Below are positions 14,547 through 32,719 of a stretch of DNA of 52,405 nt, piece after piece. The DNA is from Pirellulales bacterium (GTDB lineage Bacteria; Planctomycetota; Planctomycetia; Pirellulales; UBA1268). The stretch's first letter is position 1, and every line of letters starts with the position of its first letter. The notes below the pieces were generated by a model. The model was not told the DNA's origin, did not search any database, and was given only the letters and a program-made list of their open reading frames with translations. The position numbers and the translations under genes are program-made. The DNA lies in contig JADHSL010000001.1 of NCBI GenBank assembly GCA_016776925.1, positions 92,311 to 144,715 on the forward strand, given 5' to 3'.

Positions 14547-17500
14547 TCACCACGATTCCTGTGGTAGAGCATCATCGTCCGCTGATCCGTCAGCTGAGAT
14601 TTGTTTTGGACCAAGGGTACGAACGGTTGCTTTCGCTGCTCGAAAGAGTGTGGCGACGTGAGCATGGCACGTGAGAACAAGCATCTGGTGGTCACCGTTT
14701 CGATCATTCATAAATTCAACAAGAGTGCGTGATGCGGCTTGAGCGCGTTGGTCATCGAAGTTAACCAGGGCGTCGTCCATAACCACAGGAAGTGTAATAC
14801 CTTGTTCGTGCAGGTCACGTACAAGGGCGAGTCGCAAAGCAAGAAAAACCTGTTCTCGAGTGCCGCGACTGAGTCGTTCCGGGTTCCAAATCACACCAGC
14901 AGCGTCATGGACATCAAGCCGGGCTTCATCAGCCGCCGTGGTGATCTGAATGTATCGCCCTTCTGTAAGTCGAGCGAGCCAGTGAGATGCTTCGATAAGC
15001 GCAGCGGGTTGGTGGTGTCTCGCCACTTCCGCACGGGTACGTTCTAAAAGTCCGCGTGTGCATTTGAGCAGACGAATGCGTTGGTCGTGTGCCGCTATTT
15101 GCGCATCAACTGTAGCTGATTGATACTGCATTGTTTCTGGGCCATTGTTTTTCCCTGCCAGTTGGATTTCTTTCTCAATTTCTGTAAGTCTGGCTCGCTG
15201 GGCTCCAAGGTTTTCACGCAGTTCTTGTGTCACGCTTTCAGCGTCAGACAGTCTCTGTTTGAGAGAAATTGTCGGCGATTGCTCGATCCATGTATCAAGC
15301 ATTCTTGGGTCTTTGAATCGACTCCTACCGTCGTGCCATGTTCGCTCTGCGATACGAGCCTTTTCAGTAAGCTCATCAAAATATGGCCGGCGATCGGTCT
15401 TAGCCAGGAATATTTCTTCAGTTTCAGCATCCCATCGTTCGAGCCTCGCCTTGAGTGTGCGGTCGCATACCTTAAGTTGGCGAATTGCCTGCCTATGACG
15501 AATTCTCGCCCTCTCGAGCTTGCGAGTGCATGTTTTGTGTCGCTCGTGAATCTGCTGCTGCTTGTTCAACAGGTCATCGAGTTGCTGAAGCTGATCAAGT
15601 GAAGTTCCTTCTGGTAGGAGTTCACACTCGACAAGGATTGCTTCAATTCGCCTTGAAGCAGCAGCCAATTCTTCCCGTTTATGACGGGCCTCGTCGGAAA
15701 GTCGCCGCCGGTCGTCGTCGAGCGTAAGAAGTTCGTGGCGGTGTGTGCCAATCCGCCAGACTTCCGACGGGCTTAACGTACTGGGTAGTCCTCTTTGCTC
15801 AAGAGATCTTTGCCATCGGGCAACGCTTTTCTTTCGGCGACTGAACGCCAGCTTTAATTTCTCCTTAGACTTGGAAACGCGAGCCTTATGGCTGCGAAGG
15901 ACTCCTTCATGAGCTGCCATGTGTTCCAGCCGGAGGATTTCAGCGTCTGCCCTTGCGGCGCGTCGCTCGAGGGTGGTTTGTGGTGAGTGAGTGGATTCTG
16001 GCTGCGAATCATTTATTTCTGTGCTGAAGTGTGAGAACTGATTCGGGGATTTTGAAATTATGGTATCGAGTGTTTCGCATTGAACAGCGACATCTTTATG
16101 CTGCTTTTGTGCAAGTGCGTGCTGTCGACGTGTTTCACCCAGCCGTGCTCCTGAGGACTTGTCAAGCGTCCAGGTCATTACAGAGGCCACACCGGTGCCC
16201 GCCAGGCCGAGTGCAGCGATGACGTAAGCAAGAGGACCAGTTACAACTGCCGGCAACAGAAGACCCGATAGCAGCATTCCAGCTCCAACAACAAAAATAC
16301 TGCCGAGCCCAAGTAACCAGCTTAATGGCATTACCTGGCTGGCAAGTTGTTTGCTCATTTCTTGCTCTAGTTGTGTGATTGTCCGGTGCAGTTCAGTCAT
16401 TCGTTCTCCCGCACTCATTCGTTTACGGATTGCCGCAGACTGTTCCGTAGCTGCTTCAATGGCGGCAGTAAGAGTTGAGCCACGGAGTGCTCGTCCGGTT
16501 TCGTCAAGTTGTCGTTCGGCTTTAGCGAGTTCCGACCTTGCTCGAGCAACCTGCTTGCGAGCAGAAGCGACTGCACGAGATGCACGCTTGCAGTTTCTCG
16601 CCCGATTGCGTAGCGGGCCGAATGACAACGAAAGACCCTCAGGTAGTACGACAGCCATACCAACGTCGATGGTTTGTGGATCCTCAACCGATATGACTTT
16701 TGTGAGCCCGCACAGTCCGATCTGCTCCCCAAAGCGGCGGGCTGCAAGTCTTGCATGGGCTTCGGTTCGAGCGACGTCGGCGACAAGTCGCTCGACCTGG
16801 GAACGATCCTCCAGGAGACTCTTAATTTCAACACGTTTTTTCCAGATGGCTGTCTTGGTGTCACGGTTGGCGAGTTCTCGGGCCAGTCTTCTTCTCTCTT
16901 TCAAACGCTTTTCGACAACCCTGAAGACCTGCTTTCGCTTTTTCATATCGCGTTGCCACCCATCAAAGTCAGGATGCACCAAGGCAACCTTTTTGAGTGA
17001 CTCGAGTTCGTCAGAGAGTTCTTGCCATGCGTGTCGTAACTGGCTTATTGGCAGGGCGTCACGTGCAAGGCTTTCGGTAGCAGTGGCTCTGGTCACAGCC
17101 TTTTCAAGGCTTGTGATTTCTCGTCCGATTTTGGTGTGCTCAATGAAGAGGTCGCCAACATAATATTCAGATTGGTGCTCGTCCTCGGCTTTTCGTAACG
17201 CATCTCGTTTTTCGAGAAGGAGTTGCCGTGGTGTCTTCTGACCATCCCCTTGTGCAAGTCGTTGAACGGCTTCTTCAATCTGGCAGATAGTTCTTGCGAC
17301 TCGTGATCGATCAAGACCATTTGCGAGTTCATACAGCCGACTCCCGCACCCTTCCGGTTCAAGTGTGCGAAGTTCATGGAGCTCGTCGAGCCCGAATGCC
17401 ATGACGTTTGTGAATGTGGCTTCGTCAATGTCGCCCACAATGTCCTGGAGATAGATGCGTTGAGCATCCGTGCGGGTGCCATCGAGTTGTTCTACAGTGA

Positions 17501-17861
17501 TGCTGTCTCCCTCATCACCACCGAGACCAACGATATCATCTTCGTAACTTTCTCTTGTGAGTGATGCGATACCTGGTCCTTCGTGGCGGCGTTCGATGAT
17601 GAAACGATGACGCTCTCGTTTGCCCCGAGGACCTTTTCCAGTGACAACAATAAGTCGGCCACTGCAAGGAACTTTTGGATCAAGAACACCCCTTCTAAAT
17701 AACCCCTCAAATCCAAAGAACACGGCTCGGATGAATTCGAGTAATGAGGTTTTTCCGATTTCATTTGTACCGTGAATAACTTCGATACCCTGACCAAGGT
17801 CTTTCAGGCTGACCTCTTGCAGTCCTCCGAAGCGTTCGATTTCAAGTTGCTCAATGTGCAT
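14547..17861 (-). CDS. YhaN/SbcC-like AAA ATPase with a membrane hairpin in the coiled coil
   Basis: Large SMC/Rad50-like ATPase (1,104 residues) of the YhaN type. The N-terminal LEIERFGGLQE leads to Walker A GTNEIGKT at 31-38. The C-terminal half-site has the ABC signature in RLSRGTREQVFLALRLA (near 997) and Walker B PVVMDDALVNFDDQRA (near 1027). Between them is a long coiled coil rich in Glu, Arg and Leu. Around residues 508-560 two hydrophobic helices (FVVGAGMLLSGLLLPAVV and PLAYVIAALGLAGTG) replace the zinc hook of Rad50/SbcC, so the coil may be tethered to the membrane. AAGGA sits about 10 bp upstream of the ATG. It lies 73 bp downstream of a YhaO-like gene, its usual nuclease partner. 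A role in DNA-end processing or repair is likely but not shown. Confidence 0.88.
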   Translation of the reverse strand: MHIEQLEIERFGGLQEVSLKDLGQGIEVIHGTNEIGKTSLLEFIRAVFFGFEGLFRRGVLDPKVPCSGRLIVVTGKGPRGKRERHRFIIERRHEGPGIASLTRESYEDDIVGLGGDEGDSITVEQLDGTRTDAQRIYLQDIVGDIDEATFTNVMAFGLDELHELRTLEPEGCGSRLYELANGLDRSRVARTICQIEEAVQRLAQGDGQKTPRQLLLEKRDALRKAEDEHQSEYYVGDLFIEHTKIGREITSLEKAVTRATATESLARDALPISQLRHAWQELSDELESLKKVALVHPDFDGWQRDMKKRKQVFRVVEKRLKERRRLARELANRDTKTAIWKKRVEIKSLLEDRSQVERLVADVARTEAHARLAARRFGEQIGLCGLTKVISVEDPQTIDVGMAVVLPEGLSLSFGPLRNRARNCKRASRAVASARKQVARARSELAKAERQLDETGRALRGSTLTAAIEAATEQSAAIRKRMSAGERMTELHRTITQLEQEMSKQLASQVMPLSWLLGLGSIFVVGAGMLLSGLLLPAVVTGPLAYVIAALGLAGTGVASVMTWTLDKSSGARLGETRRQHALAQKQHKDVAVQCETLDTIISKSPNQFSHFSTEINDSQPESTHSPQTTLERRAARADAEILRLEHMAAHEGVLRSHKARVSKSKEKLKLAFSRRKKSVARWQRSLEQRGLPSTLSPSEVWRIGTHRHELLTLDDDRRRLSDEARHKREELAAASRRIEAILVECELLPEGTSLDQLQQLDDLLNKQQQIHERHKTCTRKLERARIRHRQAIRQLKVCDRTLKARLERWDAETEEIFLAKTDRRPYFDELTEKARIAERTWHDGRSRFKDPRMLDTWIEQSPTISLKQRLSDAESVTQELRENLGAQRARLTEIEKEIQLAGKNNGPETMQYQSATVDAQIAAHDQRIRLLKCTRGLLERTRAEVARHHQPAALIEASHWLARLTEGRYIQITTAADEARLDVHDAAGVIWNPERLSRGTREQVFLALRLALVRDLHEQGITLPVVMDDALVNFDDQRAQAASRTLVEFMNDRNGDHQMLVLTCHAHVATLFRAAKATVRTLGPKQISADGSADDDALPQESW

Positions 17862-17934
17862 GAATAAGGTTCCTTGAAGGTAGCCGCGTTGGCGTTCTAC
17901 TTACCTTTCCTTTGTGATTGCATCTTTTGCTCCT

Positions 17935-19155
17935 TTATTCACTCTCGAGGAGTTCAAGTGCCAGCCAGCCAGCTTCACGTTCGGCCGTTGTTCCAGGAGA
18001 CGCAGCCTCGGCCTCTGTCACAAGGTCGGCGAGTGCAGATGTGAAAGAGTTGCTTGCACCCGGACGTCCTCCAGAACGGTTGCGGCCAAGGGCTGCAAGT
18101 GGCTCTTCAACGTCAGCAGAAATACTTTGTATCCAAATATGCGGAGATGCTGCGGCACAACGTTCACGAAGAATTCTTTTCGTTTCCGGAGCAATTTCAT
18201 TGACCTCTAGTCGCCGGGTGATACTGGTGCCACATGCTATTTGGCAGTCTATTATGACCAGTGGACTCGCACTTGTTATCGTCTCGTCACCCTCTAGCAC
18301 CACTTCACCCAAAAGAGCTTGGCAGGCTTCCCAGAGGAGTTGGGAGAGTGCTTCATGGTCCTCATCGGCTGATTCGATATGAATAGTTCGCCAGATAACT
18401 TCACTCACTGGAAGTTGTTTCCACTGATCGACTGTACATTTATTTCCCAAGGGAGAATCATTATCACCGTCAGATTGTGGTCGGTAGAACGTAAGCCCAT
18501 AGCAACCAGAGTTCAGTGAGTCCGTTTGGCAACGCGATTGAATGCTCGGAAGTGGGAAAATATGATGAGGCAGTGACGAAGAGGATTTCGTTGCCCAGAT
18601 AGCCAAGGTGTTAGGCTGTGACAAATGACTTGATGACAAAAATGATGTCGCAGAATGATCATCCTCCGGGCAAGTATCCGAGCCAACAAGGATTTGCCGG
18701 TGGAGGGGCTCAAATGAACTCTGAGCAGCTATTCGTTCCACATCTGCTTCGTTAGAAACAGCCCACAGTTCAACGGTTGTAGAACGAATGGTTTGTGTCC
18801 AGGGGTGAAGTGGGCTGGCGAAGGAGAGCCCTTTCGGTTCACCCAGCACGCGCAGGTATTTCTGGGCATCAGCTGGATTAGTTGCTACCCAGAGTGTCTC
18901 GCAATCGTGCTCAGCAGCCCGGGTAATCAACTGACGGAATGCAATGAGTTGTGCTGGACTCACTCGAGTGGGGTCCACGATTGATCCACAGAGAACAATC
19001 CCTTGTGCCTGCGATTCAATTGCAAGGCGGTATGTTTTTTCGAGAGTTTTTAGAGTTGCCCCGCGGAGTCTGGCTATGAGCGATTGTGGCATGTCTTCGG
19101 GTTCAGCAATCGCTTTGTCAATTGCTGGATTGCCGATAAAGAGCAGATCAAACAT
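17935..19155 (-). CDS. YhaO/SbcD-like protein with apparently lost phosphoesterase metal ligands
   Basis: The position upstream of a YhaN-like ATPase and the sequence layout point to a metallophosphoesterase-fold partner (406 residues). TLEKTYRLAIESQAQGIVLC lies where YhaO/SbcD have the helix and strand leading to GDxxD, but here the motif is GSIVD (57-61). ETLWVATNPAD (to residue 96) occupies the place of the GNHD motif and reads TNPAD. Later IWATKSSSS replaces the LGHIH segment, while the downstream FPLPSIQSR and SGCYGLTF still resemble the family's YPG-x-QGR and KGCY. The nuclease metal site therefore seems lost and the fold retained. ATG 19155 has GAGGGAAG upstream; GTG 19227 is an alternative. 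The family call is by eye, without alignment. Confidence 0.65.
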   Translation of the reverse strand: MFDLLFIGNPAIDKAIAEPEDMPQSLIARLRGATLKTLEKTYRLAIESQAQGIVLCGSIVDPTRVSPAQLIAFRQLITRAAEHDCETLWVATNPADAQKYLRVLGEPKGLSFASPLHPWTQTIRSTTVELWAVSNEADVERIAAQSSFEPLHRQILVGSDTCPEDDHSATSFLSSSHLSQPNTLAIWATKSSSSLPHHIFPLPSIQSRCQTDSLNSGCYGLTFYRPQSDGDNDSPLGNKCTVDQWKQLPVSEVIWRTIHIESADEDHEALSQLLWEACQALLGEVVLEGDETITSASPLVIIDCQIACGTSITRRLEVNEIAPETKRILRERCAAASPHIWIQSISADVEEPLAALGRNRSGGRPGASNSFTSALADLVTEAEAASPGTTAEREAGWLALELLESE

Positions 19156-19317
19156 CGTCTCTTCCCTCGTAGTTAGGTTAGCTCTAACAAGGCCATGCGA
19201 AACATTCACAAAAAGCTCAGGAGTCACTTGGCTGGCTAGCTGGGGTCGCTAATCTTTGCTTGGTTTACCTGGTCTGCCATTCCGCTAGGGACTGTACCGG
19301 CAATCCGCTGAATTCCG

Positions 19318-20097
19318 CTACTGCAAAAGAGGCGGCTGGTGTGCAAATGCTTTGGCTGCCGCCGCACACCAGTCTTTTTCAGACTGAGATGGTCCTAGAA
19401 CGGCCACAATCCGACCGCGATGGAGCACTCCTTTTTCGATAATTGTCGGAAAAAAATAGCTTTTCAGTACGTGTTTGTATGCCACTGGGCCATCGCTACC
19501 TGCGGCAGGTATCGACGTCATCATGGTGTGATGGATTTCGTCACTTCGGGTAAACAGTGCAAGAGTGTGTTCACAGCCTGGAAGTTGGAATACAAAGCTT
19601 TGAACCGTCACGGTTTGATCAGTGTTTTGGCTCCAGTACTCCCGCGATCCTAGCGAATCTTGTTCCCATTGGAATGAGTTGGTAGACCAACTTCCAGTTT
19701 GCGCTGATGTTGCCAAGAATGAACATTCAACGGCGAGAGATCCATCACTTTTCTCCCTGAGTGTTTCGCTCGAGAGAATGAGTTCTGCCGTAATCGAATT
19801 ATCTCGATCCTTCTTTGGGACCCACGTACCCTGAAGTCTCCACAAACCGCTGATCTTTAATTGACGGGCATCGTTAATTGCATAGACGCCAGTAGCGTCA
19901 TTTCCCCGGACCCAGCCATCACTGAACGCAAGGGCCTGTTTGGGAAGGCAAATTCCAAGTATAGAAATCGAGGAGTCACCAGACTTTATGAATATGCCAG
20001 AGCCTGGTTCCTCTAAATCCAATTGAGCTGTCAGTGATCCAAGTTTGTGTGTCCACCCCAAGCCATTTGCTCGCAAATTGTCTTCTGAGGCACTCAT
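19318..20097 (-). CDS. Unknown protein at the head of the YhaO/YhaN-like operon
   Basis: I do not recognise this 259-residue protein. It has no signal peptide or membrane segment and appears rich in beta strands and aromatic residues (GLGWTHKLGSLTAQLDLEEP, ISGLWRLQGTWVPKKDRD, FVFQLPGCEHTLALFTRSDE). There is no nucleotide-binding or catalytic signature. ATG 20097 has GGAG about 9 bp upstream, so expression is likely. It lies 162 bp upstream of the YhaO-like gene on the same strand and is divergent from the inositol-phosphatase gene. It may be a third subunit or accessory factor of the ATPase system; that is guilt by association only. Confidence 0.6.
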   Translation of the reverse strand: MSASEDNLRANGLGWTHKLGSLTAQLDLEEPGSGIFIKSGDSSISILGICLPKQALAFSDGWVRGNDATGVYAINDARQLKISGLWRLQGTWVPKKDRDNSITAELILSSETLREKSDGSLAVECSFLATSAQTGSWSTNSFQWEQDSLGSREYWSQNTDQTVTVQSFVFQLPGCEHTLALFTRSDEIHHTMMTSIPAAGSDGPVAYKHVLKSYFFPTIIEKGVLHRGRIVAVLGPSQSEKDWCAAAAKAFAHQPPLLQ

Positions 20098-20495: not shown

Positions 20496-21329
20496 ATGAA
20501 TGTCCCCCCAGAAATTAGTGCTTTTGAAAGATTGAATGAGTACGGTGAGTTTGCAGAGGTTGCGGCTCGCGCAGGAGGTGACGTACTTCGCGACTGGCGA
20601 GGACGTTTTGCTGTTTCTACAAAGGGACCGAGAGATCTTGTTACTGAGGCGGATCTTGCTTCTCAGAAAACAATCCGCGAAATTCTTTTGAGTAGATTTC
20701 CGGAGCATGGATTCATTGGAGAAGAGGGCGATCAAGATTCGGCAAATTCTTCACTTCGTTGGATGGTAGACCCGCTTGATGGCACGAGTAATTACGTTCA
20801 CGGATTTCCTGCTTATTGTGTTTCAGTAGCTCTGGCCTATCATGATGAAATTCTAGCCGGAGCAATTTATGATCCGGTTGCAGACGAGTGCTTCACCGCC
20901 ATTCGTGGTGGTGGAGCTCGACTTGAAAACACGGCTCTCCAAACTACGGATCCACCACAACTTTCCGATGCTCTTGTTGCAGTGAGTTTTCCACCGCACG
21001 TGGATTGTGAGTCACTTGCAGTCGCTGACTTTCTTTCGATTGTGCCGCATGTCCACTCTGTACGCAGGACTGGTTCTACAGCAATCAATTTGGCGTATCT
21101 GGCGGCAGGGAGACTTGATGGTTTCTGGGTGCGTCGAATTGCATGCTGGGATGTGGCTGCTGGGTTGTTGATTGCTGCAGAGGCTGGGGCGGTTGTGGTC
21201 CCCTGTCGACACCCGGACGATTCCTGTGAACCTCCGGCTCAGGCAACCGTGTCGTTGGATCGACCGGCATTTGTTGCCGCAGCCAATCAACGGGTTGCCA
21301 CCGGGCTTCATGATCTACTCACTGGGTGA
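20496..21329 (+). CDS. Inositol monophosphatase family phosphatase (SuhB/HisN-like)
   Basis: Mg2+-dependent, Li+-sensitive sugar/polyol phosphatase family member of 277 residues. The metal site is intact: GEEGD (E and D after FPEHGFIG), WMVDPLDGTSNYVHGFP with the DPLDGT signature, and near the C-terminus CWDVAAGLLIAAEAGAVV with the WDxAAG motif. Family members hydrolyse inositol-1-phosphate, histidinol phosphate or 3'-phosphoadenosine phosphate, and the exact substrate is not readable here. ATG 20496 is plausible although its ribosome site is weak. A 15-bp tandem duplication covers its stop codon. About 220 bp separate it from the giant genes. Confidence 0.92.
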   Translation: MNVPPEISAFERLNEYGEFAEVAARAGGDVLRDWRGRFAVSTKGPRDLVTEADLASQKTIREILLSRFPEHGFIGEEGDQDSANSSLRWMVDPLDGTSNYVHGFPAYCVSVALAYHDEILAGAIYDPVADECFTAIRGGGARLENTALQTTDPPQLSDALVAVSFPPHVDCESLAVADFLSIVPHVHSVRRTGSTAINLAYLAAGRLDGFWVRRIACWDVAAGLLIAAEAGAVVVPCRHPDDSCEPPAQATVSLDRPAFVAAANQRVATGLHDLLTG

Positions 21330-21550: not shown

Positions 21551-24500
21551 TTGGCCACAGCCAGCCGAATTATTGAGCGAAATGACATGTGCACAACTCG
21601 CTTGCGAGTTGTTATGAAATGCTTTTTACCCACGTTGGTGTCCTCCTACCCGCCTGGAGCGCAACAATGTGTCAGGACTATTCTTTGTAGTCTGCTAGGA
21701 ATTCTGTTGGTGGGGAGTTCATGTCTCGGAGAAGAGACTCGTGATGATCAGGAGGGGCCTGTATCACGAGAAGTGAGGCAAGTAGAACCGGACCTGTATT
21801 ACGTGGAGGACGACTTAGGTCGATTGATTCCTGTTCCAGGATTTCGCTACCGAGACTTTGTAGACCTTGTCCGGTTGCGAGATGGTTTGCCAGTTCAGGC
21901 AGAGACGCCGGGAGTCGTTCTTGAGCAACTCCGAATGAACGTCACCTTGCCGGCTCTAACCGGGAGCAATGTTACATATGCCGACGTTGACGTGGAGTGC
22001 GTTGTACGTAGTACTCGTTCAGGCTGGGGTATGCTGCCATTGAAACTCCCCGAACTGGTCCTTGCAGAGTCACCCACAGTCGTTGGAAATGGTGAAGTGG
22101 TGGTCACGATCGATCCATCACCAGTGGAAACCAATACCGACAGCGCAGCCAATCGATCATCGCTTCAGCAAGGCGTCTTCGAATCACGACCTGTCTTGGA
22201 CAAAGGCTTCCTTGTTTGGATTCATGAGCAAGATGAAGTGGCAGAGACTGAAACAGTGAAGAGACGGAAAGGTGGAAGGCCTCATACGATTGTATTGAGA
22301 GGCCAGATTCCAGTCGATGTGTCGCTCGATCGCGATCAGTTGAGCTTTACCTTGCCAGCTGCTACAGATTCAAAAATATCCATCGAAACACAGCGGCGCG
22401 ATCCTCTGGTCAAACTTAACGCCAGTGTCATCACGCCTGCCGTACAACTGATCGACGAGGAGAGCGACACAGCAGGTAGTGTCGTAGAGATTCGTGGCGC
22501 AGTTGGGCCGACACGACTCCAGTTAGAGGAATCTCTTGTAGGCAATGTTCCTGTTCGGCAGATTGCTGAGTCGAAAGTCGAAAGTGTTGTTCGGGTAGAC
22601 GGTCGATTGGCGAAGATAAAGGCCGAATTTACTTTGACGAATCTTACCCAAGGTGAGGGGCTTTTTACTGTTCGATTACCGTCCCGTTCAGTTGTCCGGT
22701 CAGTGGGAAGCACCGCAAAAATACTCAGCCGTGGTGGCTCTGCTTCAAGGCCGCAGGTTGTAGTTCGGGTTGATACAACGAAAGACGGACATGCTTCTTT
22801 TGAGCTTGTTTGTGAGCGATCGATCGATACTTCTAGCGAAGTTCCAATAGATGTCGGCGGTTTTTCTATTGACGAAGTTCCACTACAACGGCAATGGGGT
22901 CAGGTGAGTGTCTTTACTGATAAAGACTGGACTGTCGAGTGGGAACCTCAATCCGGGAATAGACAAGTTGACGCCTCTGCAGCACTCTCGCAAGAAGGGT
23001 TTGTGGCGGCATTTGCATTTGACTCGCAGCCTATGTCACTGCCGTTACAAGTGCTTCCACAGAGAAGCCAATTAGTAGTTGAGCCAGAATATATTTTCCA
23101 CGTCACTCGGAATAGGTTGGAACTCTCGATTCGTCTACAGGCTGTTGTCCGTGGTGGTGCAGCAAAGCAACTGAATATTCTGGCACCAGGCTGGAAAATT
23201 GAGGGAGTTGGTCCTCCCAGTGTTGTTGATAGTGCGTCAGTGTCAGAGTCTTCCGGAGTGGTTACTGTGCCATTCCTTAAGCCAATAGCCGGAGAGGTAG
23301 TGGTTGAACTGCAATGCAGCCGGCGACTCGATCCGGATAGTGAGGAGGTGCAGTGGGCCACACCCGTTCCCGAGGCCGACCTCGTTGGACCCGCGCGTGT
23401 GGGAATTACATCCGAAAGCGATATTGAACTCGTTCCGGATACGGAACGAATTGTAGGTATGAGTCGACAAGTTTCGTCACAACTAAATGGACCCTCTGTT
23501 GATTTGTCGAGAATGTCGTATCGGGTACAGGCCGACAATTCAACTTTCGTGGCGACACGACGTATTCTGGATCAACAGATTGATGCCTCGATTACTGCGC
23601 AAGTCGATATCGATTTTCGCCAGGTGGTTGTGCAACAGGCAACTCGCATAAACGTAGCTCATGTCCCGCTCCAATTCATTGAGTGGATGGTGCCGGAAAG
23701 TGTAGTTGAGACAGGTAGCATTGAGGCTCGTTTCAATGGTCAGTTATTGACACCAGAAGTCATCAGTAGATCACCTGGAATCAACGATTTGGGTGGAGAC
23801 GACTCGTTCAACAATGAACTGGGAGCCGGTGCTGAAGGGGATGGCAGTGACCGTTCCTCACGCATTGTTCGAGTCCTGTTGCCGGATCCATTGTTCGGGA
23901 CTGGCGAACTTGTAACGCGGTATACCCAGCTCATGCCGAAAATACCAGAAGAGGCAACAGTTCCTATATCTATTCCCCTCCTGCTCCCCAAGGGTGCGGT
24001 TGTCGGTCGTCAATCAGTAACACTTTCTTCTGTTGAAGAATTGAATGTCGACGTTCGCGACGAACGATGGAATCGGGAAGGGAGTCTTCAAACAATCGGA
24101 CTCGGTAGAACATGGAACGCCTCTCAGGGGCAAGCGACAATTGATATCGCAGTAAGCCAGAGTCAGAAGAGTTTGCTTGGTGAAACGGTCGTAGAGGCGA
24201 CTTGGGTACGGACGACACTTCGTGGCCCAATGAGGTTTGATCAGTGGGCGTTTGCTGTGACAAGCGCCTCTGATTCGTTGACTCTAACTCTTCCTGTTTT
24301 AGCCAAGGAGGGAAATGATGTATTGGCGGGCAATCAAATAGCAAGAGCACGAGTCAATAATTCACCGTGGAGTGCTGCAGACGAAGCTACAGGAAGGGTC
24401 GATCTCGACTTAGGTCAATCCAGAGGAACTCATCTTATTGAAGTAGAAGTTCGTCAACCACGAAAAGAAAGTTTGTTGAAAGGGGCGATACAGGGCCTTG

Positions 24501-25225
24501 ATTGGATCGACTTTCAGAGTTCTGCGATGCCATCTGCCTCGCTATATAGCCGCGTTGTCTGGGAAATCTTGGTACCTGATGGATCCGAACTTCTGTGGGG
24601 TCCTCGAGGGTGGACAAGCCAACAAGTCTGGGACTGGAGTCCAAGTTTGAAGCAGAAGCCAGCTGTTTCGGTCCAGAACTTGGCATCATGGGTAACTGCG
24701 GCTTCAAATCCACAGTCAAATATACAGGGAAGACTCGGGGTTGGTTGGCTTTCCATGCCAAGAGACTTTATTGAACACAGGCGGGTGTTTTGCGATGTGG
24801 GAGGTCCGACTGATGTAGGTGTTTTTCTTGTTCCACGATGGTTACTCGTCCTTGTCGCAAGTGGACTTCCACTTGCGATTGGTGCGGTATTAACGGTTCT
24901 TCCAAGATTGACCGCCATTGCTTTGGTTGTAGCGTCTGTCGTCTTTATTGGCGGCATGGCAATTGGGCCAACAATTACTCTTTGCATCCTGAAAGCAAGT
25001 TTGCCGGGGCTTGCGCTTGCCGTACCAGCGGGAGTCGCTAGCTGGTGGCGTCTTCTGCTCAAGAGGCGTACGCAAGGTACGTATGAGTTGGAGTCTTGGG
25101 AGATGAAGCATTCGGGATCCAAGAAAGTCACTCCTCAAGAGTCGCTGGTTATCAATATGAAGCCATCTACTGCGCAGACGGTTGTTCCCGTTGCGTCGTC
25201 TCAGTCAAGAGCTGAAACGGAGTAG
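21551..25225 (+). CDS. Giant secreted, C-terminally membrane-anchored protein, module 1
   Basis: I do not recognise the family. Up to 1,224 residues. Near the N-terminus (residues 41-59) ILCSLLGILLVGSSC followed by an acidic LGEETRDD looks like an export signal. About 1,000 residues of beta-rich, Val/Ser/Glu-rich sequence follow, with recurring patterns of the type TVRLPSRSVVRSV (around 375) and polar linkers (GAGAEGDGSD). Then come several hydrophobic helices from about 1,095 to 1,165 (WLLVLVASGLPLAIGAVL, IALVVASVVFIGGMAIG) and a basic tail. The start is uncertain: TTG 21551, ATG 21587 and ATG 21614 are all in frame. A perfect hairpin lies just before the last one. Its stop overlaps the GTG of the next gene (TAGTG), so the two are coupled. 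Probably an envelope or surface component. Confidence 0.7.
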   Translation: MATASRIIERNDMCTTRLRVVMKCFLPTLVSSYPPGAQQCVRTILCSLLGILLVGSSCLGEETRDDQEGPVSREVRQVEPDLYYVEDDLGRLIPVPGFRYRDFVDLVRLRDGLPVQAETPGVVLEQLRMNVTLPALTGSNVTYADVDVECVVRSTRSGWGMLPLKLPELVLAESPTVVGNGEVVVTIDPSPVETNTDSAANRSSLQQGVFESRPVLDKGFLVWIHEQDEVAETETVKRRKGGRPHTIVLRGQIPVDVSLDRDQLSFTLPAATDSKISIETQRRDPLVKLNASVITPAVQLIDEESDTAGSVVEIRGAVGPTRLQLEESLVGNVPVRQIAESKVESVVRVDGRLAKIKAEFTLTNLTQGEGLFTVRLPSRSVVRSVGSTAKILSRGGSASRPQVVVRVDTTKDGHASFELVCERSIDTSSEVPIDVGGFSIDEVPLQRQWGQVSVFTDKDWTVEWEPQSGNRQVDASAALSQEGFVAAFAFDSQPMSLPLQVLPQRSQLVVEPEYIFHVTRNRLELSIRLQAVVRGGAAKQLNILAPGWKIEGVGPPSVVDSASVSESSGVVTVPFLKPIAGEVVVELQCSRRLDPDSEEVQWATPVPEADLVGPARVGITSESDIELVPDTERIVGMSRQVSSQLNGPSVDLSRMSYRVQADNSTFVATRRILDQQIDASITAQVDIDFRQVVVQQATRINVAHVPLQFIEWMVPESVVETGSIEARFNGQLLTPEVISRSPGINDLGGDDSFNNELGAGAEGDGSDRSSRIVRVLLPDPLFGTGELVTRYTQLMPKIPEEATVPISIPLLLPKGAVVGRQSVTLSSVEELNVDVRDERWNREGSLQTIGLGRTWNASQGQATIDIAVSQSQKSLLGETVVEATWVRTTLRGPMRFDQWAFAVTSASDSLTLTLPVLAKEGNDVLAGNQIARARVNNSPWSAADEATGRVDLDLGQSRGTHLIEVEVRQPRKESLLKGAIQGLDWIDFQSSAMPSASLYSRVVWEILVPDGSELLWGPRGWTSQQVWDWSPSLKQKPAVSVQNLASWVTAASNPQSNIQGRLGVGWLSMPRDFIEHRRVFCDVGGPTDVGVFLVPRWLLVLVASGLPLAIGAVLTVLPRLTAIALVVASVVFIGGMAIGPTITLCILKASLPGLALAVPAGVASWWRLLLKRRTQGTYELESWEMKHSGSKKVTPQESLVINMKPSTAQTVVPVASSQSRAETE
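21593..21612 (+). promoter_or_regulatory. Perfect 8-bp hairpin near the start of the first giant gene
   Basis: ACAACTCG (21593-21600) and CGAGTTGT (21605-21612) enclose the loop CTTG and end one base before the in-frame ATG at 21614. In mRNA this would hide the area ahead of that ATG. Either an upstream start is used or the hairpin damps initiation. Confidence 0.4.
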
Positions 25226-28200
25226 TGGTACGTATGAGCAAAAAATATTATTTTCACAAACCCATTTGGCGACTGCTTCTCGTAGCACTTGTTTTTGTTC
25301 TTTGCGGACACAGTGTGAGGCAAGGCAAGGTTTTATATGGAGCAGATTTAGATGAAGCCAAGGAAGGTGCTGTCTCCCGAGTTGAAACTAGTACGATGTC
25401 CTTCTCTCGCGTGTACGTGCCTTCTGGCCGTCTCTCTGATGTCATTCGTGATGAGACACGATATATCCCTATGGACGTGGATGAATTTGATAAGGTTGTT
25501 CAGCGACTATTGCCACGTGATACAAGGCGCGCTTTTGAAACACCTCAGCCGGTTGCTGAATACGTTCTCTATGAAATGAAACTCGATGAATCAGGATCAC
25601 TTCTTGGCGATGTTTCTGTGCGGTTGCCGGGTCGAGGTGGAGAATTTGAGGTTTTTCCGGGAGAGGCACTTTTTCAAAATAGCCGCTGGCTAAATCAAGA
25701 AGTGCGCTCTCAATCATCAATTGATCGGTTGCAGGAAAGTGCGGAATTACAGCCGCCAGTTAGATTGTTTAAGCCGGATGGTATACCCGTTGATCTGTTC
25801 GGAAAACCGGATGGCTCGATAGAGTTTCAGGTACCTGGAGCAGGTATGGTATTTGCGAATCTTCGGGTGCTACCCGAACGTGCAGATCGTTCACTCAGTC
25901 GAGGGGTTTCTTTGAGTGTGGGCCAATCCAGCTTTTTATTTCCACGCATCCCCTCCCTGTCGACAACACTTGTTCTCGATCTTCCAAAAACTGCTGTGCC
26001 GATGATCGTGGGTAATGTGCCGAGCACAGATAAGGTTGATGATAATGAATTGGACTCTGAGCAATATTGCCGTTGGCGGTATGAGCTTGGGTCAAGAAGG
26101 TTGCTTAATCTGACACTTTCTCCTCGTCGTGCCAGTCGTTGTTCGGTTTGGTCTAGCGTCTTTGTTGGAGAAAGAACTGTAGAGATAGGGACAGTCATTC
26201 TTCCCGAAACAGTTTGGTCCGAAAGATCTCTACGGCTCATGATTGATAAACAAGTCACAGTCATGAGCGCTCAGACTTATGGTGATGGGTTGAGACAAGT
26301 GAGCAAATCCAATGAAATGGATGTTCGTCGCGAATCCAACAATACGATAAGTGTCCTGTTGCCGGCAACTCTTATTGGAACCAAGACACGCATTCTGGTG
26401 CGGAGTGTTATCTCAAGCATTCACCAAGGCAAGGAGCGTTTGCAACTTCCTGGTGTGACGATTGATCCAGAGCTCTGGGTTGGTGGTGGGTTTTTTGTAG
26501 ACGTAGAAAATAGCCTTCAAGTCTCCAATGTGGCGACAGGAAAGTGCCTTGCAATGGCACCAGAAAAAGCGATGGAATGGCCGAGGGTAGCCAATTTCAG
26601 CGCCGGTACACGGAACCGCCTAACAAGCCATTCTGGTGTCCCGGGATTTGTATTCGAGCAACAAGATGCAGATGGTTCATGTGGCGTTTCAGTTGTAAAG
26701 AGGCAGCCAGATTTTGATGTTGCCCGCGTAACGACGGTTGATGTTTCTTCGGCCTCACTTATTGGACGTGCTGCCTGTGATATTCATGTCCGTCGTGGCA
26801 GTGTGCACAGTGTTGTTGGACGTATTGGTAAGGAATGGTTTATCGACTCAGTCGAGCCACTGATCGCTGAAAAAGCGTTGGTCCAGCGTGGCGTCGAAAC
26901 AGAACAAGCCATTCCTGATCGTGTACAGAGCGATGTCGGCAACGTACTGGGGGCGCCCTATGAGTGGAAAGTAGTGCGAGGCAAGAACGGAAATCAGCTT
27001 GTGCTCGATCTGCCAAGGGCTATTCGCGATGGAGACAGTCTACGCATTAGAATAACAGGACATCGTCGTGGTGTGCCGGCGGGTGCGCAGATTCATTCCA
27101 CAGACGCCGATATGATCCAGCTTGCCGGTGAGGTTTCTGAGCAGGCTTGGATCGACTTGCGGACGAGCCCAGAAACCACATTGATCAAGATTGAGGGTCC
27201 GAAAAACGAACCACTATTCGGGCCACGTTTAACCCTACTTGCTGAACAAGGTGTTTGGCGACAACGCGTTGCTGGAGGTCGGCTTGCTACCCCGGAGGTG
27301 TTTCGGTTTCTTCGCAGAAGACCCCCTCTTGAGGTTCTTGCGCAATCGCAATTCACAGTTCGTGGAAATCAATTCAGTGAAACCTATAGTTTTTCATGCC
27401 AGGCATTTCAGGGTGAACTTGATGCTGTCACAGTGCACTTTTCAGAACCAGTTGGTGATCTTGATTGGTCAATCCTTTCTGATAGCGAGACAACGGCTAT
27501 TGCTCGTCGCCTCAATACGTCGGAGTCACATGTTGGTGCAGAACCGAACAATATAAAAAGGTCAATAAAAGAGTCCTGGTTGGTCGAGTTGAATCCACCG
27601 GTTAGAGGAGCAACAACTTTAAGGGCAACGGGAAAACGAGACTTCACGGAGCAGACTGCTATTCCACTGGTGTGGATTGAATCAGCAATTTCGCCACAGG
27701 GTCGCATCGCTATTCAGTCTGCCCGCGGAAGCCGACCCACAGTAATCAATCATGGTCTTGTTCAGCTGCCTCCTCTGGCAGGTCAGTCAAATTTGCCAAT
27801 TCAGTCAGTAATGGAGTTGCTGTACGACGAATCAGCATTGGCTCAAACAGGCCCTTCTGTAGAAGTACTGCCGGTTCCTAATAGCGTTCAGTCTGTTGCC
27901 CGTGCTTGGGTGTGGAGAGAGAGTGTGCGGGTGCGATGTTATGCATCTGCAAATGCAGAATATGAAACAACGTTTATTATTGAAAATGATGGTAGGCAAA
28001 GTGTTACTGTGAGTTTGCCGAAAGGCCATCGTCTTATTGGGCTAGAAGTTCAAGATGAATCCATACCGTTACAGTCGTCGAATGTAAGAGAGTTTCCGGT
28101 CTATTTGCCGAGCGGTCGGCAGCGAGTTTTTGTGACCGTGCGTACGGTTGTTGCGGCTGATTTTTCCCAAGGGATTTGGAGGCTGTCCTCAGTTGTGCCG

Positions 28201-31200
28201 GCGGTTGATGCGCCAACACTCACGCGAGAAATGCAAGTGGCAATCCCTAAGGATGTACGGTTGATAGGAGTGCCATCCGGGTACACAGAAATTTTTAAGC
28301 AGAAGACTGACTGGATTGAAAGGCTTTCTGGACTATCTCAACGAGAGTCATGGTTTGCAAGCACAAGCCCCGAGGTCGCTTCGTCTGGGTTCGACTCGCG
28401 ATGGTTTGTTCCGACAAGTGGACGATACCAGCCAAGATTCTTTCTTCTAGTTAACCGCTGGTTGTTGGCTGCGTCAGCTCTTTGTGTTGCTGTTGCTGCA
28501 ATGTGGTTGTCATTGTCGGTTTTCTGGAGAAGTTCATGGTTGCTAGTTGCTGGCGTTGTGGTTGCTTCAGTAGCTGCGTTGTGGGTGCCTCAACCGTTTG
28601 ATTTGATAGCGCGTGCAAGTCTATGGGGGATGCTTGCTGCTGTTGGTTTTCGTGTCTGGATGTATGGTCGTGCAAAGAAACAGGTGTCCTTTGTGGCTCT
28701 TGTATGGATATTCTCAGGAGCCTGTTCCTATGGGGCTGAGGTTCCTTTGCAAGTGTTTCTTACCCCAGTTGATGGAGAAACAACGGCACTGGTTCCGGAG
28801 CCACTTTACAGAGTGTTAGTAGGAACGAGTGCAGCCCAGTCTTCTGGAGTGCGTGTTCTAAAATCAAAAATGGAGTTACCATCGGTTCGCGGCTCGGCCA
28901 TTCAAAATGAGATTGAAATTTGGCATTTGAACCTCTTAATTGAAACCGATTCGGCCGAGGTGTTTTCGCTTGATCAGTCACCTGTCGGAGGCCGTTTTGC
29001 AAATGAGCCGTTTCTTCTTAACGGTGGGTCCTTGAGTGTGTCGTTATCTGCGAACCGTAATCAGGCACGGTTATCCCTTCCATCTGGAGGAAGACACAGC
29101 CTTGTTGTTCCGGTGGAACCAGCAAGAACACGAAGGGGAGATATAGAGATTTGTGAGGTTTGCCTTCCAACGTCTCCACAGACCGTGGTCGCGATGATGC
29201 CTCCCAATGGAATCGTGTATCCGCGGGACTGGCGCGGAGGGGTTCAGTGCGAATGGTCGAACGGCCAGGATGTTTTTCGACCAGCGCAAGAGATTGTGTC
29301 CCTTGATTCACGGCTACAGAGGTTTAGGGTACCTCCCGCTGAGCGTCTGCGAGTTATTCGTTCGCTGGATCCCAAAGAAACGGTAACAACGATTGTTCAT
29401 GAGTCGAAGAGTAAAAACCAGATTACATGGACACCAAACGGTATTGGTTTAGTGGCAGAATTTATGATTGATGGGGGAAACGCGATACTGCCGTCATTCT
29501 GGATTCAGGCAGACCCCCGCCTTGTTTTTGCAAAAAGCCAAGACGATGAGAATGCACCTCACATAATTGGTGGATTTGAGGTGCAATCATTAGGACGAGG
29601 CATTTATAGAGTCGATCGTACCGAGCTCAACACAGAGAAGATGACGTTTCGAATGTCATTTCATATGCCACTAATAAATCTTACTGGCAAATACGAGTTG
29701 CCATATGCGTGGGTTCGTGGAGTTGAACGCGATACTCGTGAGTCGGTACTTACTAGTTACCCTGGCATTTCAATCGATGTACAGTTTCCTCAGGCAGTAG
29801 CTCCTCCGCAAGTGAATGAAGTTCAAGACGATGTTTTGCAATGGATCACCGAACTTATTAAAAGTGGCGATGAGTCGTTTTCTGAAAGTAGTTCAGATAA
29901 TGTTCCTGAAGATAATGTTCCTGAAGATAGATTGGACATAATTCGTCTGCCTTTTGCCTTGCAGAGGCAGGCAGCATATGTAGAGGTAAGTCGTGAGCAA
30001 AATCTTTTACGAGGAACACAACAAATAGAAATTGTAGAACGTGCAGACAAAAACTATCTAGTTTTTGAAGCCACAATTGATTCAAGTCAGACAGTTTGGT
30101 TGAAGGATCGGATCAGTATTCCAAAGGGTTATCGGCTTGAGGCCTGTCAAGTATTTGAGAAAAAAAGTGGGAGCACCAGCGTTCAGAATGAATGTCCACT
30201 TGACATCTCCTTACAGAAAGAAAAACAAGATGCTTATGGATTGACGCTTCAGCAGCCTCGTTCGGGTATTTTTCTTTTGCGGGTCCAGGCAAGCAGTAAT
30301 GGGCAGCTACGAAGAAAAGGGGTTTTGCCTCTGGTACAGTCGGCTTCTGCCTCTGATTTCCCCTATTCAGTGATTTGGGGAGGTGGTGATCAGCGAGCTA
30401 ATCTTACGATCCTTGGTGATCAGCAAGTTTCAGAATTTGATACGGCTCAAAAAAGTCAGCTAAATGGCCGACGTCGTAGCCTGCCTGCGGTACGAGTTTC
30501 TGAGGATAGTCAGAGTAGTGTGTGGCGTGTCGAATTGCCCTCGAATGATACGGTGTGGTCATATCAGAGCGAGATACAGACGGGGCACGAACTAGTGGAA
30601 CGCTCCGAATTGGCACCGGTCAGTGCAGAAGTTGATTCGAGCGTGAGTATGGATTCTGTCCTTACTGTGCCGCTCATTGACATTGAAGTAATAGTCGATG
30701 AGCGCGGTCGGATCTCAGGAATTTGCTGTATTGAATTACCAATGACGGCACCCGAAGTGCGGGTTCGAGTACCCGCAGGGTTCCGAGTCTATGAAATGTT
30801 GCTAGATGGTCAGCAGATTCAGCCCCAAACGCCTCGTCGCGACAGTCCGGCGGAGGTATGGGCTGTTCCTATACAGGCAGGTTCCTGGCCACACGAACTA
30901 GTCTTTGTATTTGTTGGAGAATTCGAAGCCACAACGATGCAAGGGGAACCAGTGTCCTTGGCTTTGCCCAGCGTTGTTGGCATGCCTGTTGAGCAAGTTC
31001 TATGGACAATTAATCATCCCATGAGTCGGTCGATACGATTTGCGGGGCTTGGAGACGTGCTGAATGAATTTGAGTCGCGTGATATAAGGACGAACGTACA
31101 AACAGAAATTGACGAGCTCGTCACCACCATTTCACCTGCTTTACCCAAAGGGGTGGGAACGCGATTGTCCGAGTTTCGTCTGAGTCGACAAAAGCAAGAC

Positions 31201-31773
31201 GGTGTGCCACCACTTGAAGCCTGGGTGAGTGGTACAGCAGACACGTCTGAAGCAAGTCCGATTGCAAGACAATTCAGTTCGGCATTTCTCGCAAGTAATC
31301 GTTGGAAAAAGCTGATTATTCAACCACAATCGGCTCGTGGAGTTGTAACGATTCGATTTGCGGACTCGCCGCTTTCAAGGGTTGGACGTGCCGTTGCAAC
31401 GCTGGTGGTTTTAGTCCTTGGAGCGTGGGGCTGTTGGGGGGTTGCAAAATTTGCTGACGTAATGCTCGCACTCGCTAATCGCTGGTGGCCAGCTATCGCG
31501 GGCGTTATAGCAGTTGGTTGGATTATCTATCGTGAGCCAGCGTGGCCTGGTTTTATGCTTCTGTTTCTAGCTACAGGCGCAGGGCTTGGACGACTGTTGG
31601 ATGTATATTCAGGTCAGGAGCATTACTCCCTGGCCGCCGATCAGCCGACTGTTCAGCATGGAGCAAAGCACGGCGTAAGCGCTTCGTCATCAACGCGAGT
31701 TGTCGCCAATATGCATGAATCTTCAACGATTACACACTATGAATCGGGTAAAGGAGTAAGGCTTGATCCCTAA
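25225..31773 (+). CDS. Giant secreted membrane-anchored protein, two fused modules
   Basis: 2,182 residues with no domain I can name. The N-terminus is a clear signal peptide (WRLLLVALVFVLCGHS, about 15-30). Residues 40-1,070 are beta-rich. Residues 1,079-1,150 hold several hydrophobic helices (RWLLAASALCVAVAAMWLSL, WLLVAGVVVASVAALWV). A second signal-like stretch, FVALVWIFSGACSYGAE (1,156-1,172), comes directly after. A second beta-rich part follows, then membrane helices near 2,055-2,125. A recurring pattern of LPxGxRL plus a short strand is seen near 929 (LPKGHRLIGLEV), 1,630 (IPKGYRLEACQV) and 1,847 (VPAGFRVYEMLL). GTG 25225 overlaps the previous stop; ATG 25234 is an alternative. Composition, anchor and size of each half match the preceding gene, suggesting triplication and fusion. 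Function unknown; an envelope role is inferred from topology. Confidence 0.7.
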   Translation: MVRMSKKYYFHKPIWRLLLVALVFVLCGHSVRQGKVLYGADLDEAKEGAVSRVETSTMSFSRVYVPSGRLSDVIRDETRYIPMDVDEFDKVVQRLLPRDTRRAFETPQPVAEYVLYEMKLDESGSLLGDVSVRLPGRGGEFEVFPGEALFQNSRWLNQEVRSQSSIDRLQESAELQPPVRLFKPDGIPVDLFGKPDGSIEFQVPGAGMVFANLRVLPERADRSLSRGVSLSVGQSSFLFPRIPSLSTTLVLDLPKTAVPMIVGNVPSTDKVDDNELDSEQYCRWRYELGSRRLLNLTLSPRRASRCSVWSSVFVGERTVEIGTVILPETVWSERSLRLMIDKQVTVMSAQTYGDGLRQVSKSNEMDVRRESNNTISVLLPATLIGTKTRILVRSVISSIHQGKERLQLPGVTIDPELWVGGGFFVDVENSLQVSNVATGKCLAMAPEKAMEWPRVANFSAGTRNRLTSHSGVPGFVFEQQDADGSCGVSVVKRQPDFDVARVTTVDVSSASLIGRAACDIHVRRGSVHSVVGRIGKEWFIDSVEPLIAEKALVQRGVETEQAIPDRVQSDVGNVLGAPYEWKVVRGKNGNQLVLDLPRAIRDGDSLRIRITGHRRGVPAGAQIHSTDADMIQLAGEVSEQAWIDLRTSPETTLIKIEGPKNEPLFGPRLTLLAEQGVWRQRVAGGRLATPEVFRFLRRRPPLEVLAQSQFTVRGNQFSETYSFSCQAFQGELDAVTVHFSEPVGDLDWSILSDSETTAIARRLNTSESHVGAEPNNIKRSIKESWLVELNPPVRGATTLRATGKRDFTEQTAIPLVWIESAISPQGRIAIQSARGSRPTVINHGLVQLPPLAGQSNLPIQSVMELLYDESALAQTGPSVEVLPVPNSVQSVARAWVWRESVRVRCYASANAEYETTFIIENDGRQSVTVSLPKGHRLIGLEVQDESIPLQSSNVREFPVYLPSGRQRVFVTVRTVVAADFSQGIWRLSSVVPAVDAPTLTREMQVAIPKDVRLIGVPSGYTEIFKQKTDWIERLSGLSQRESWFASTSPEVASSGFDSRWFVPTSGRYQPRFFLLVNRWLLAASALCVAVAAMWLSLSVFWRSSWLLVAGVVVASVAALWVPQPFDLIARASLWGMLAAVGFRVWMYGRAKKQVSFVALVWIFSGACSYGAEVPLQVFLTPVDGETTALVPEPLYRVLVGTSAAQSSGVRVLKSKMELPSVRGSAIQNEIEIWHLNLLIETDSAEVFSLDQSPVGGRFANEPFLLNGGSLSVSLSANRNQARLSLPSGGRHSLVVPVEPARTRRGDIEICEVCLPTSPQTVVAMMPPNGIVYPRDWRGGVQCEWSNGQDVFRPAQEIVSLDSRLQRFRVPPAERLRVIRSLDPKETVTTIVHESKSKNQITWTPNGIGLVAEFMIDGGNAILPSFWIQADPRLVFAKSQDDENAPHIIGGFEVQSLGRGIYRVDRTELNTEKMTFRMSFHMPLINLTGKYELPYAWVRGVERDTRESVLTSYPGISIDVQFPQAVAPPQVNEVQDDVLQWITELIKSGDESFSESSSDNVPEDNVPEDRLDIIRLPFALQRQAAYVEVSREQNLLRGTQQIEIVERADKNYLVFEATIDSSQTVWLKDRISIPKGYRLEACQVFEKKSGSTSVQNECPLDISLQKEKQDAYGLTLQQPRSGIFLLRVQASSNGQLRRKGVLPLVQSASASDFPYSVIWGGGDQRANLTILGDQQVSEFDTAQKSQLNGRRRSLPAVRVSEDSQSSVWRVELPSNDTVWSYQSEIQTGHELVERSELAPVSAEVDSSVSMDSVLTVPLIDIEVIVDERGRISGICCIELPMTAPEVRVRVPAGFRVYEMLLDGQQIQPQTPRRDSPAEVWAVPIQAGSWPHELVFVFVGEFEATTMQGEPVSLALPSVVGMPVEQVLWTINHPMSRSIRFAGLGDVLNEFESRDIRTNVQTEIDELVTTISPALPKGVGTRLSEFRLSRQKQDGVPPLEAWVSGTADTSEASPIARQFSSAFLASNRWKKLIIQPQSARGVVTIRFADSPLSRVGRAVATLVVLVLGAWGCWGVAKFADVMLALANRWWPAIAGVIAVGWIIYREPAWPGFMLLFLATGAGLGRLLDVYSGQEHYSLAADQPTVQHGAKHGVSASSSTRVVANMHESSTITHYESGKGVRLDP
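29896..29925 (+). repeat. Tandem 15-bp repeat inside the second giant gene
   Basis: GATAATGTTCCTGAA is present twice head to tail (29896-29910, 29911-29925), followed by GATA. It encodes Asp-Asn-Val-Pro-Glu twice, in an acidic, Ser-rich linker. The unit keeps the frame. Confidence 0.9.
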
Positions 31774-31783
31774 GTCTTGACCC

Positions 31784-32719
31784 TTAATCACCCGAGCCAA
31801 ATTTGTAAGCAGCGTTGGTAGGATCAAAGTCGGCGTCCGTGAATCCATTGTTCACTTTGACATTCATGTAGGTATATTCCTCCATGAGAATTGGTTGGCC
31901 ACCCTGCTCCTTAGGCCAGTCATAAGCTTCGTAGCGAATAGGAATAAGGTATTCGTCATCCATGTAGACACGAGCAAGATGAAAACGAAAGTTTCGTCGA
32001 GGTACTGGATGGACAACTTGGATACAGGTGCAGACCCTTCCATTTACTTTGGCTTTAGGGAAAAAGTTAACATCACACTCGCCAAATTGTTTGTCATGTT
32101 TAGCAACCTCAACAAGTCGCTCCGCAAGGTTCTCGACGCCGATCTCTGTAATCGGGTATCTGTTCCCCTGCATTGCGAGCATGCTCTGTGGTTTGAGAGA
32201 AACTGTGCCGACCATTGCGCGAACCCCACTGCCCGCATGAGCTAGCATGTTTCCGTCATTCTGGCCATCAGAATAAATGACCTCCTGTCCCTTTACTGCT
32301 TCTGGAGCAAGGAAGTAGAGATAAACACTGAAGGGCTCGTGCCGAATTTTGGCAAACATGTATTCATGCGGCTGAAGTTCACCCCCAATTCGCTCCCGTT
32401 TGACAACGGTGCATGAGTAATCTTTTATATTCGCGCGAAGGTTATCCAGGCCTTGGGCAGCGAGAGCCAGAGCAGGTTCCAGAGGGTGTTCACCTTGCCC
32501 TGTATTGGATACTGCGTCGCCGGCGTTAATATTACCTTGTGCCGTGTCGCCGTTTGGTATCAGCCCCACTTGACTTCCTGAAGTCTCTTCAGCCTTTAGT
32601 CCACCCACGAGAACAACGCAAAGAAGCGTCCATGCACACACGCCACAAAAAGTTGTGTGGCTGAGAAAAAAGTGTTTGGTTGTGGTTGCTTTGATCGCAG
32701 TCATCCCTGATCTGCTCAT
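31784..32719 (-). CDS. DUF1571 family secreted protein
   Basis: Matches my knowledge of the DUF1571 family, which is common in planctomycetes and related in fold to lipoprotein-carrier (LolA-like) domains. The N-terminus has a signal-like hydrophobic run (CGVCAWTLLCVVLVGGLKAEE, residues about 25-45) and then a polar, Gly/Asn/Asp-rich linker. The core from about residue 85 carries IKDYSCTVVKRERIGGEL, EPFSVYLYFLAPEAVKGQEV, and in the last third LARVYMDDEYLIPIRYEAYD. AAGAGGAG lies 6 bp before ATG 32719. The 3' end converges on the giant gene with 10 bp between stops. Role unknown; the family fold suggests binding of a hydrophobic ligand in the cell envelope. Confidence 0.8.
   Translation of the reverse strand: MSRSGMTAIKATTTKHFFLSHTTFCGVCAWTLLCVVLVGGLKAEETSGSQVGLIPNGDTAQGNINAGDAVSNTGQGEHPLEPALALAAQGLDNLRANIKDYSCTVVKRERIGGELQPHEYMFAKIRHEPFSVYLYFLAPEAVKGQEVIYSDGQNDGNMLAHAGSGVRAMVGTVSLKPQSMLAMQGNRYPITEIGVENLAERLVEVAKHDKQFGECDVNFFPKAKVNGRVCTCIQVVHPVPRRNFRFHLARVYMDDEYLIPIRYEAYDWPKEQGGQPILMEEYTYMNVKVNNGFTDADFDPTNAAYKFGSGD

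Follow-up and report, generated by a model that had tools for sequence, protein, structure and literature searches.

The window, i.e., the whole stretch of 52,405 nucleotides that was analysed, stems from the genome of an uncultured planctomycete (3.16 Mb, 93% complete), the nearest named records of which are metagenome-assembled Planctomycetaceae/Pirellulales genomes. Its plus strand carries two large genes, whose products fall into three parts, termed copies 1 to 3 here. Gene one (21551–25225) starts with TTG and encodes copy 1, a protein of 1224 residues composed of an export signal, a predicted beta-sandwich array, three C-terminal helices and a polar tail. The hydrophobic core of its signal peptide spans residues 41–59 (21671–21727), and 40 of 47 orthologs likewise have a hydrophobic segment here. 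Directly past the export signal lies the conserved motif GRLIPVPGFRYRDFVDLVR (residues 90–108; 21818–21874), the counterparts of which in copies 2 and 3 are TRYIPMDVDEFDKVV and TALVPEPLYRVL, respectively, and the three C-terminal membrane helices occupy residues 1098–1160 (24842–25030).

Gene one ends within the sequence TAGTG (25223–25227), in which its stop codon shares one base with the GTG start of gene two (25225–31773, 2182 residues); both reading frames and their one-base overlap are thus as a first, sequence-only reading of this DNA had described them. Gene two is a fusion of two copies. Copy 2, as delimited by profile alignment, comprises residues 1–1150 (25225–28674) and has hydrophobic helices close to its C-terminus (residues 1081–1121; 28465–28587). 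Copy 3, delimited by profile alignment together with a predicted model, comprises residues 1150–2182 (28672–31773) and opens with an internal hydrophobic stretch resembling a signal peptide (residues 1154–1167; 28684–28725), which was recognized by inspection of the sequence, being short and scoring below the automatic cut-off for the window protein. Three C-terminal helices are predicted for copy 3 by the model (residues 2052–2130; 31378–31614), their number ranging from 0 to 3 in a crude hydrophobicity scan. All three parts therefore follow the plan proposed earlier, with a signal-peptide-like hydrophobic start and hydrophobic helices at the end. The motif LPxGxRL, which had been said to recur in gene two, occurs there in its strict form only once (residue 931) and was dropped as a unifying feature; it is a looser pattern, [LIV]PxGx[RQ], that is enriched in gene two (6 occurrences vs. 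0.28 expected), with none in gene one.

Profile comparison and predicted fold of the modules

Profile–profile alignment was based on 46 sequences of gene one and 37 of gene two. Copies 1 and 2 align with scores of 278–289 (residues 84–1163 on 64–1145, probability 99.8), copies 1 and 3 with 170–192 (probability 98.9–99.3; in one run, residues 81–1195 aligned to residues 1176–2161 of gene two), and copies 2 and 3 with 191–212 (probability 99.2–99.5), while no reversed profile scores above 40 and no column-shuffled one above 22, compared to about 164–290 for real pairs overall. The C-terminal helices are included in the similarity between copies 1 and 2 and between copies 1 and 3. Secondary, off-diagonal matches (score up to 84) are shifted by ~170–205 residues, indicating repeated domains inside each module. 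Since all parts are rich in beta structure and the copies share very little sequence identity, one might suspect that they are alike merely through convergence; this is hardly credible, however, as the scores exceed those of the reversed and shuffled controls 4–10-fold over alignments of up to ~950 columns, and as the modules are encoded by three separate genes in some relatives (see below). At the profile level, convergence is refuted. Homology of the three copies, formerly offered as an inference, is thereby demonstrated by controlled alignments, with every pair (164–289) lying well above the nulls (≤40).

None of the modules matches a Pfam or NCBIfam family above the cut-off, nor does any module profile match a PDB sequence, which bears out the earlier impression that known domains are lacking. 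AlphaFold2 models of copy 1 (pLDDT 74) and copy 3 (pLDDT 71) are built alike: nearly all beta, in arrays of beta-sandwiches, followed by three long helices and a disordered tail. Searched separately, both models match the same PDB neighbors, namely ribophorin I/Ost1, integrin alpha, the inter-alpha-inhibitor heavy chain, the N-domains of M1 aminopeptidases, and alpha-2-macroglobulin. Copies 1 and 3 accordingly agree in plan and in neighbors, and copy 2, tied to them by profile alignment, presumably belongs to the same type. The TM-scores are low, which is not surprising for flexible chains of several domains modelled with low pTM (0.37 and 0.43); the fold matches thus speak of the type of domain rather than of relationship.

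Ribophorin I/Ost1 is the top fold neighbor of copy 1 and among the top ones of copy 3, and like the modules it combines a membrane anchor with beta-rich domains, which are lumenal in its case. In Ost1, there are two similar domains of this kind, and binding of glycosylated peptides has been reported (PMC7226087). The modules might thus assist glycosylation or the export of membrane proteins as an accessory complex of the ribophorin I type, whose arms keep periplasmic proteins that are nascent or glycosylated close to an enzyme in the membrane. However, the modules are bacterial, come in three copies and have about three helices instead of one; TM-scores amount to only 0.1–0.35, no ribophorin I chain in the PDB is hit by any module profile up to an E-value of 5, the window proteins lack a Pfam match to it, and no oligosaccharyltransferase gene was found adjoining the pair. 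We consider this possibility unlikely.

The N-terminal beta domain of M1 aminopeptidases (Peptidase_M1_N, PF17900) is a fold neighbor of both models as well, and its profile scores 30–38 at several sites in the modules, compared to reversed and shuffled nulls of at most 23, at probabilities of no more than 39%. These profile scores make a distant relation to the M1_N fold possible but do not prove it. Unlike in M1 aminopeptidases, the putative domain recurs several times in the modules, which are membrane-anchored. The catalytic motifs HEXXH and GAMEN are absent from the window proteins, and HEXXH is not conserved among orthologs (1 of 47 for gene one, 3 of 38 for gene two), so that a function as M1 peptidase was rejected. 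ITIH1, representing the VIT-VWA proteins of the inter-alpha-trypsin heavy chain type, is another neighbor of both modelled copies; the modules, however, have neither a VWA domain nor a VIT profile match, and homology to VIT (PF08487) was discarded at hhalign scores of 14–21 (probability ≤1.1%), compared to 296 for VIT against itself. Very improbable, too, is a protease trap of the alpha-2-macroglobulin type, which is suggested by weak fold matches to A2M and CD109 and by one relative matching bMG10 (E-value 0.003): the window proteins have no Pfam A2M or MG domain, and the thioester motif CxEQ occurs in none of 47 gene-one orthologs and is missing from 37 of 38 gene-two orthologs, the remaining one being the only carrier, which led us to reject an alpha-2-macroglobulin function.

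Distribution and gene order

Of 118 genomes of the order, 93 yielded relatives of gene one in a single-sequence search and eight more in a profile search, i.e., at least 101 in total; about 17 of the 118 are without a match, hence the family is not universal. In a sample of the phylum, 61 of 294 genomes match, other classes included. No relatives were detected in the viral contigs and plasmids searched, and a viral or plasmid origin was rejected accordingly. No published description of the system was found in the literature searched, and the giant surface proteins reported from the Tuwongella proteome are others, with a different export motif (PMC8567305). The earlier suggestion of a planctomycete system that has not been described therefore agrees with the spread over Planctomycetota and with the lack of a described family in the libraries searched. 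Several records that hold Pirellulales-like loci of the family (L090, L093, L096, L103, and L116) are titled Candidatus Kuenenia stuttgartiensis; these titles look like those of mislabelled bins.

Gene two follows gene one in every locus with enough sequence, and start and stop overlap by four bases at the junction in 39 of 52 related pairs, a few of these loci being near-duplicates of one genome. In one other family of the class, the examined genomes have two pairs at separate places. In two unrelated families (G178, locus L164; G128, locus L163), the modules are encoded by three separate tandem genes, most of them with a signal-like start and all of them with C-terminal helices, which implies that gene two is a fusion of two modules. 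Some distant loci (L170, L194, L196, and L197) contain a VWA gene followed by a double-module gene alone. When sequences from beyond the order are assigned to profiles, 34 of 37 single-module genes match that of gene one best, and 20 of 28 C-terminal halves of gene two match that of copy 3 best; the fit of copy-specific profiles across classes indicates that the copies diverged before these classes did. Controlled profile alignments, two independent models with the same fold neighbors, and relatives with three separate genes together support the view that one beta-rich module, exported and anchored in the membrane, is present in three homologous copies.

Neighboring genes

Upstream of the pair, on the same strand, the window carries a gene of the inositol-monophosphatase (IMPase) family (20496–21329), which is kept in part of the class: a same-strand IMPase gene precedes the pair in 18 of 37 Pirellulales loci and in 4 of 11 other Planctomycetia loci, these counts being lower bounds owing to a simple gene caller. 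The pair could accordingly take part in inositol or phospholipid metabolism, but this appears quite improbable, given that more than 200 bases separate the IMPase gene from gene one in the window, that it is absent from the examined loci outside the class, and that the modules have no enzyme domain.

Other genes around the pair recur as well. A DUF1571 protein is encoded on the minus strand (31784–32719), convergent with gene two, and L160 likewise has a member of its cluster downstream of the pair. A 259-residue protein with no convincing Pfam match (19318–20097, minus strand) is found upstream of the pair in 23 compared loci. An SbcC/SMC-like AAA protein (1104 residues) and an adjoining 430-residue protein without a Pfam match (14547–19227, minus strand) are kept as neighbors in several relatives of the module family. 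In a distinct locus (L193:15132–16298), a transaldolase with C-terminally fused EF-hands adjoins a phosphoglucose isomerase.

Outside Planctomycetia, a gene for a VWA/YfbK-domain protein lies directly upstream of the modules in 11 of 22 readable loci, and in 5 of those 11 it is itself preceded by an ECF sigma factor gene. A zf-HC2 anti-sigma finger was found in three of six VWA/YfbK proteins scanned (L166, L182, and L187), and in another locus (L184:10415–16535) an ECF sigma factor gene is followed by that of a 1855-residue zf-HC2-VIT-VWA protein, divergent from the module pair. ECF sigma/zf-HC2 anti-sigma systems are hence located directly upstream of the modules in several distant relatives, but a module is itself no sigma or anti-sigma factor, and this link is missing from the surroundings of the pair in the window. 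The recurrent operon suggests a role of the complex in envelope sensing, at least in those lineages. There is no sigma factor or VWA gene among the three genes upstream of the pair in the window; the window genome as a whole has no YfbK_C or VIT match, which indicates that this lineage does not require the signalling partner.

A putative inner-membrane complex

Anchoring by about three alpha-helices argues, in a diderm cell, for insertion into the cytoplasmic membrane and for a periplasmic location of the beta arms, rather than for the outer cell surface. This bears on another conceivable function, that of an integrin- or MSCRAMM-like surface adhesin for attachment or aggregation. Both modelled copies have integrin alpha chains among their top fold neighbors, the staphylococcal adhesins ClfA, SdrE, and UafA are neighbors of copy 3, and VWA partner proteins are present in some lineages. 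However, in addition to the alpha-helical anchor, neither an LPxTG sorting signal was found nor a MIDAS assigned in the modules, making an adhesin rather improbable.

The best reading of the gene pair, to which we assign a probability of roughly 0.5, is a hetero-oligomeric scaffold or sensor that sits in the inner membrane and faces the periplasm. The pair would give rise to one complex of three anciently duplicated, non-identical modules of ~1,000 residues. Each of them would be exported by a Sec-type signal, extend into the periplasm as a chain of beta-sandwich domains with a distant likeness to the M1 aminopeptidase N-terminal domain and to the lumenal portion of ribophorin I, and sit in the membrane by means of about three bundled helices that carry a cytoplasmic tail. 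The stoichiometry would be set by coupled translation and by the joining of copies 2 and 3 in one protein, which suggests an obligate hetero-oligomer; conserved gene order and the conserved identity of the copies argue in the same direction. In the periplasm, the arms would most likely bind an envelope ligand, serving as a scaffold or sensor. Outside the class of the window, a VWA-bearing membrane anti-sigma factor probably reads out the complex and controls the ECF sigma factor. More tentatively, the modules may constitute an undescribed, phylum-wide envelope machine of Planctomycetota, in which three ancient paralogous beta-sandwich arms form an obligate inner-membrane hetero-oligomer that reports the state of the envelope and, in many lineages, feeds a switch of VWA anti-sigma and ECF sigma factors.

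The envelope of Planctomycetota is unusual, and little is known of its conserved parts. A gene pair of ~10 kb that lacks a match in Pfam, NCBIfam or PDB sequences, keeps its order from the order of the window to distant classes, and encodes three anciently diverged copies is a candidate core component of this envelope. The sigma-switch operon of distant lineages offers a direct way of testing a role in signalling, and the lineages with three separate module genes provide a natural experiment on the fusion.
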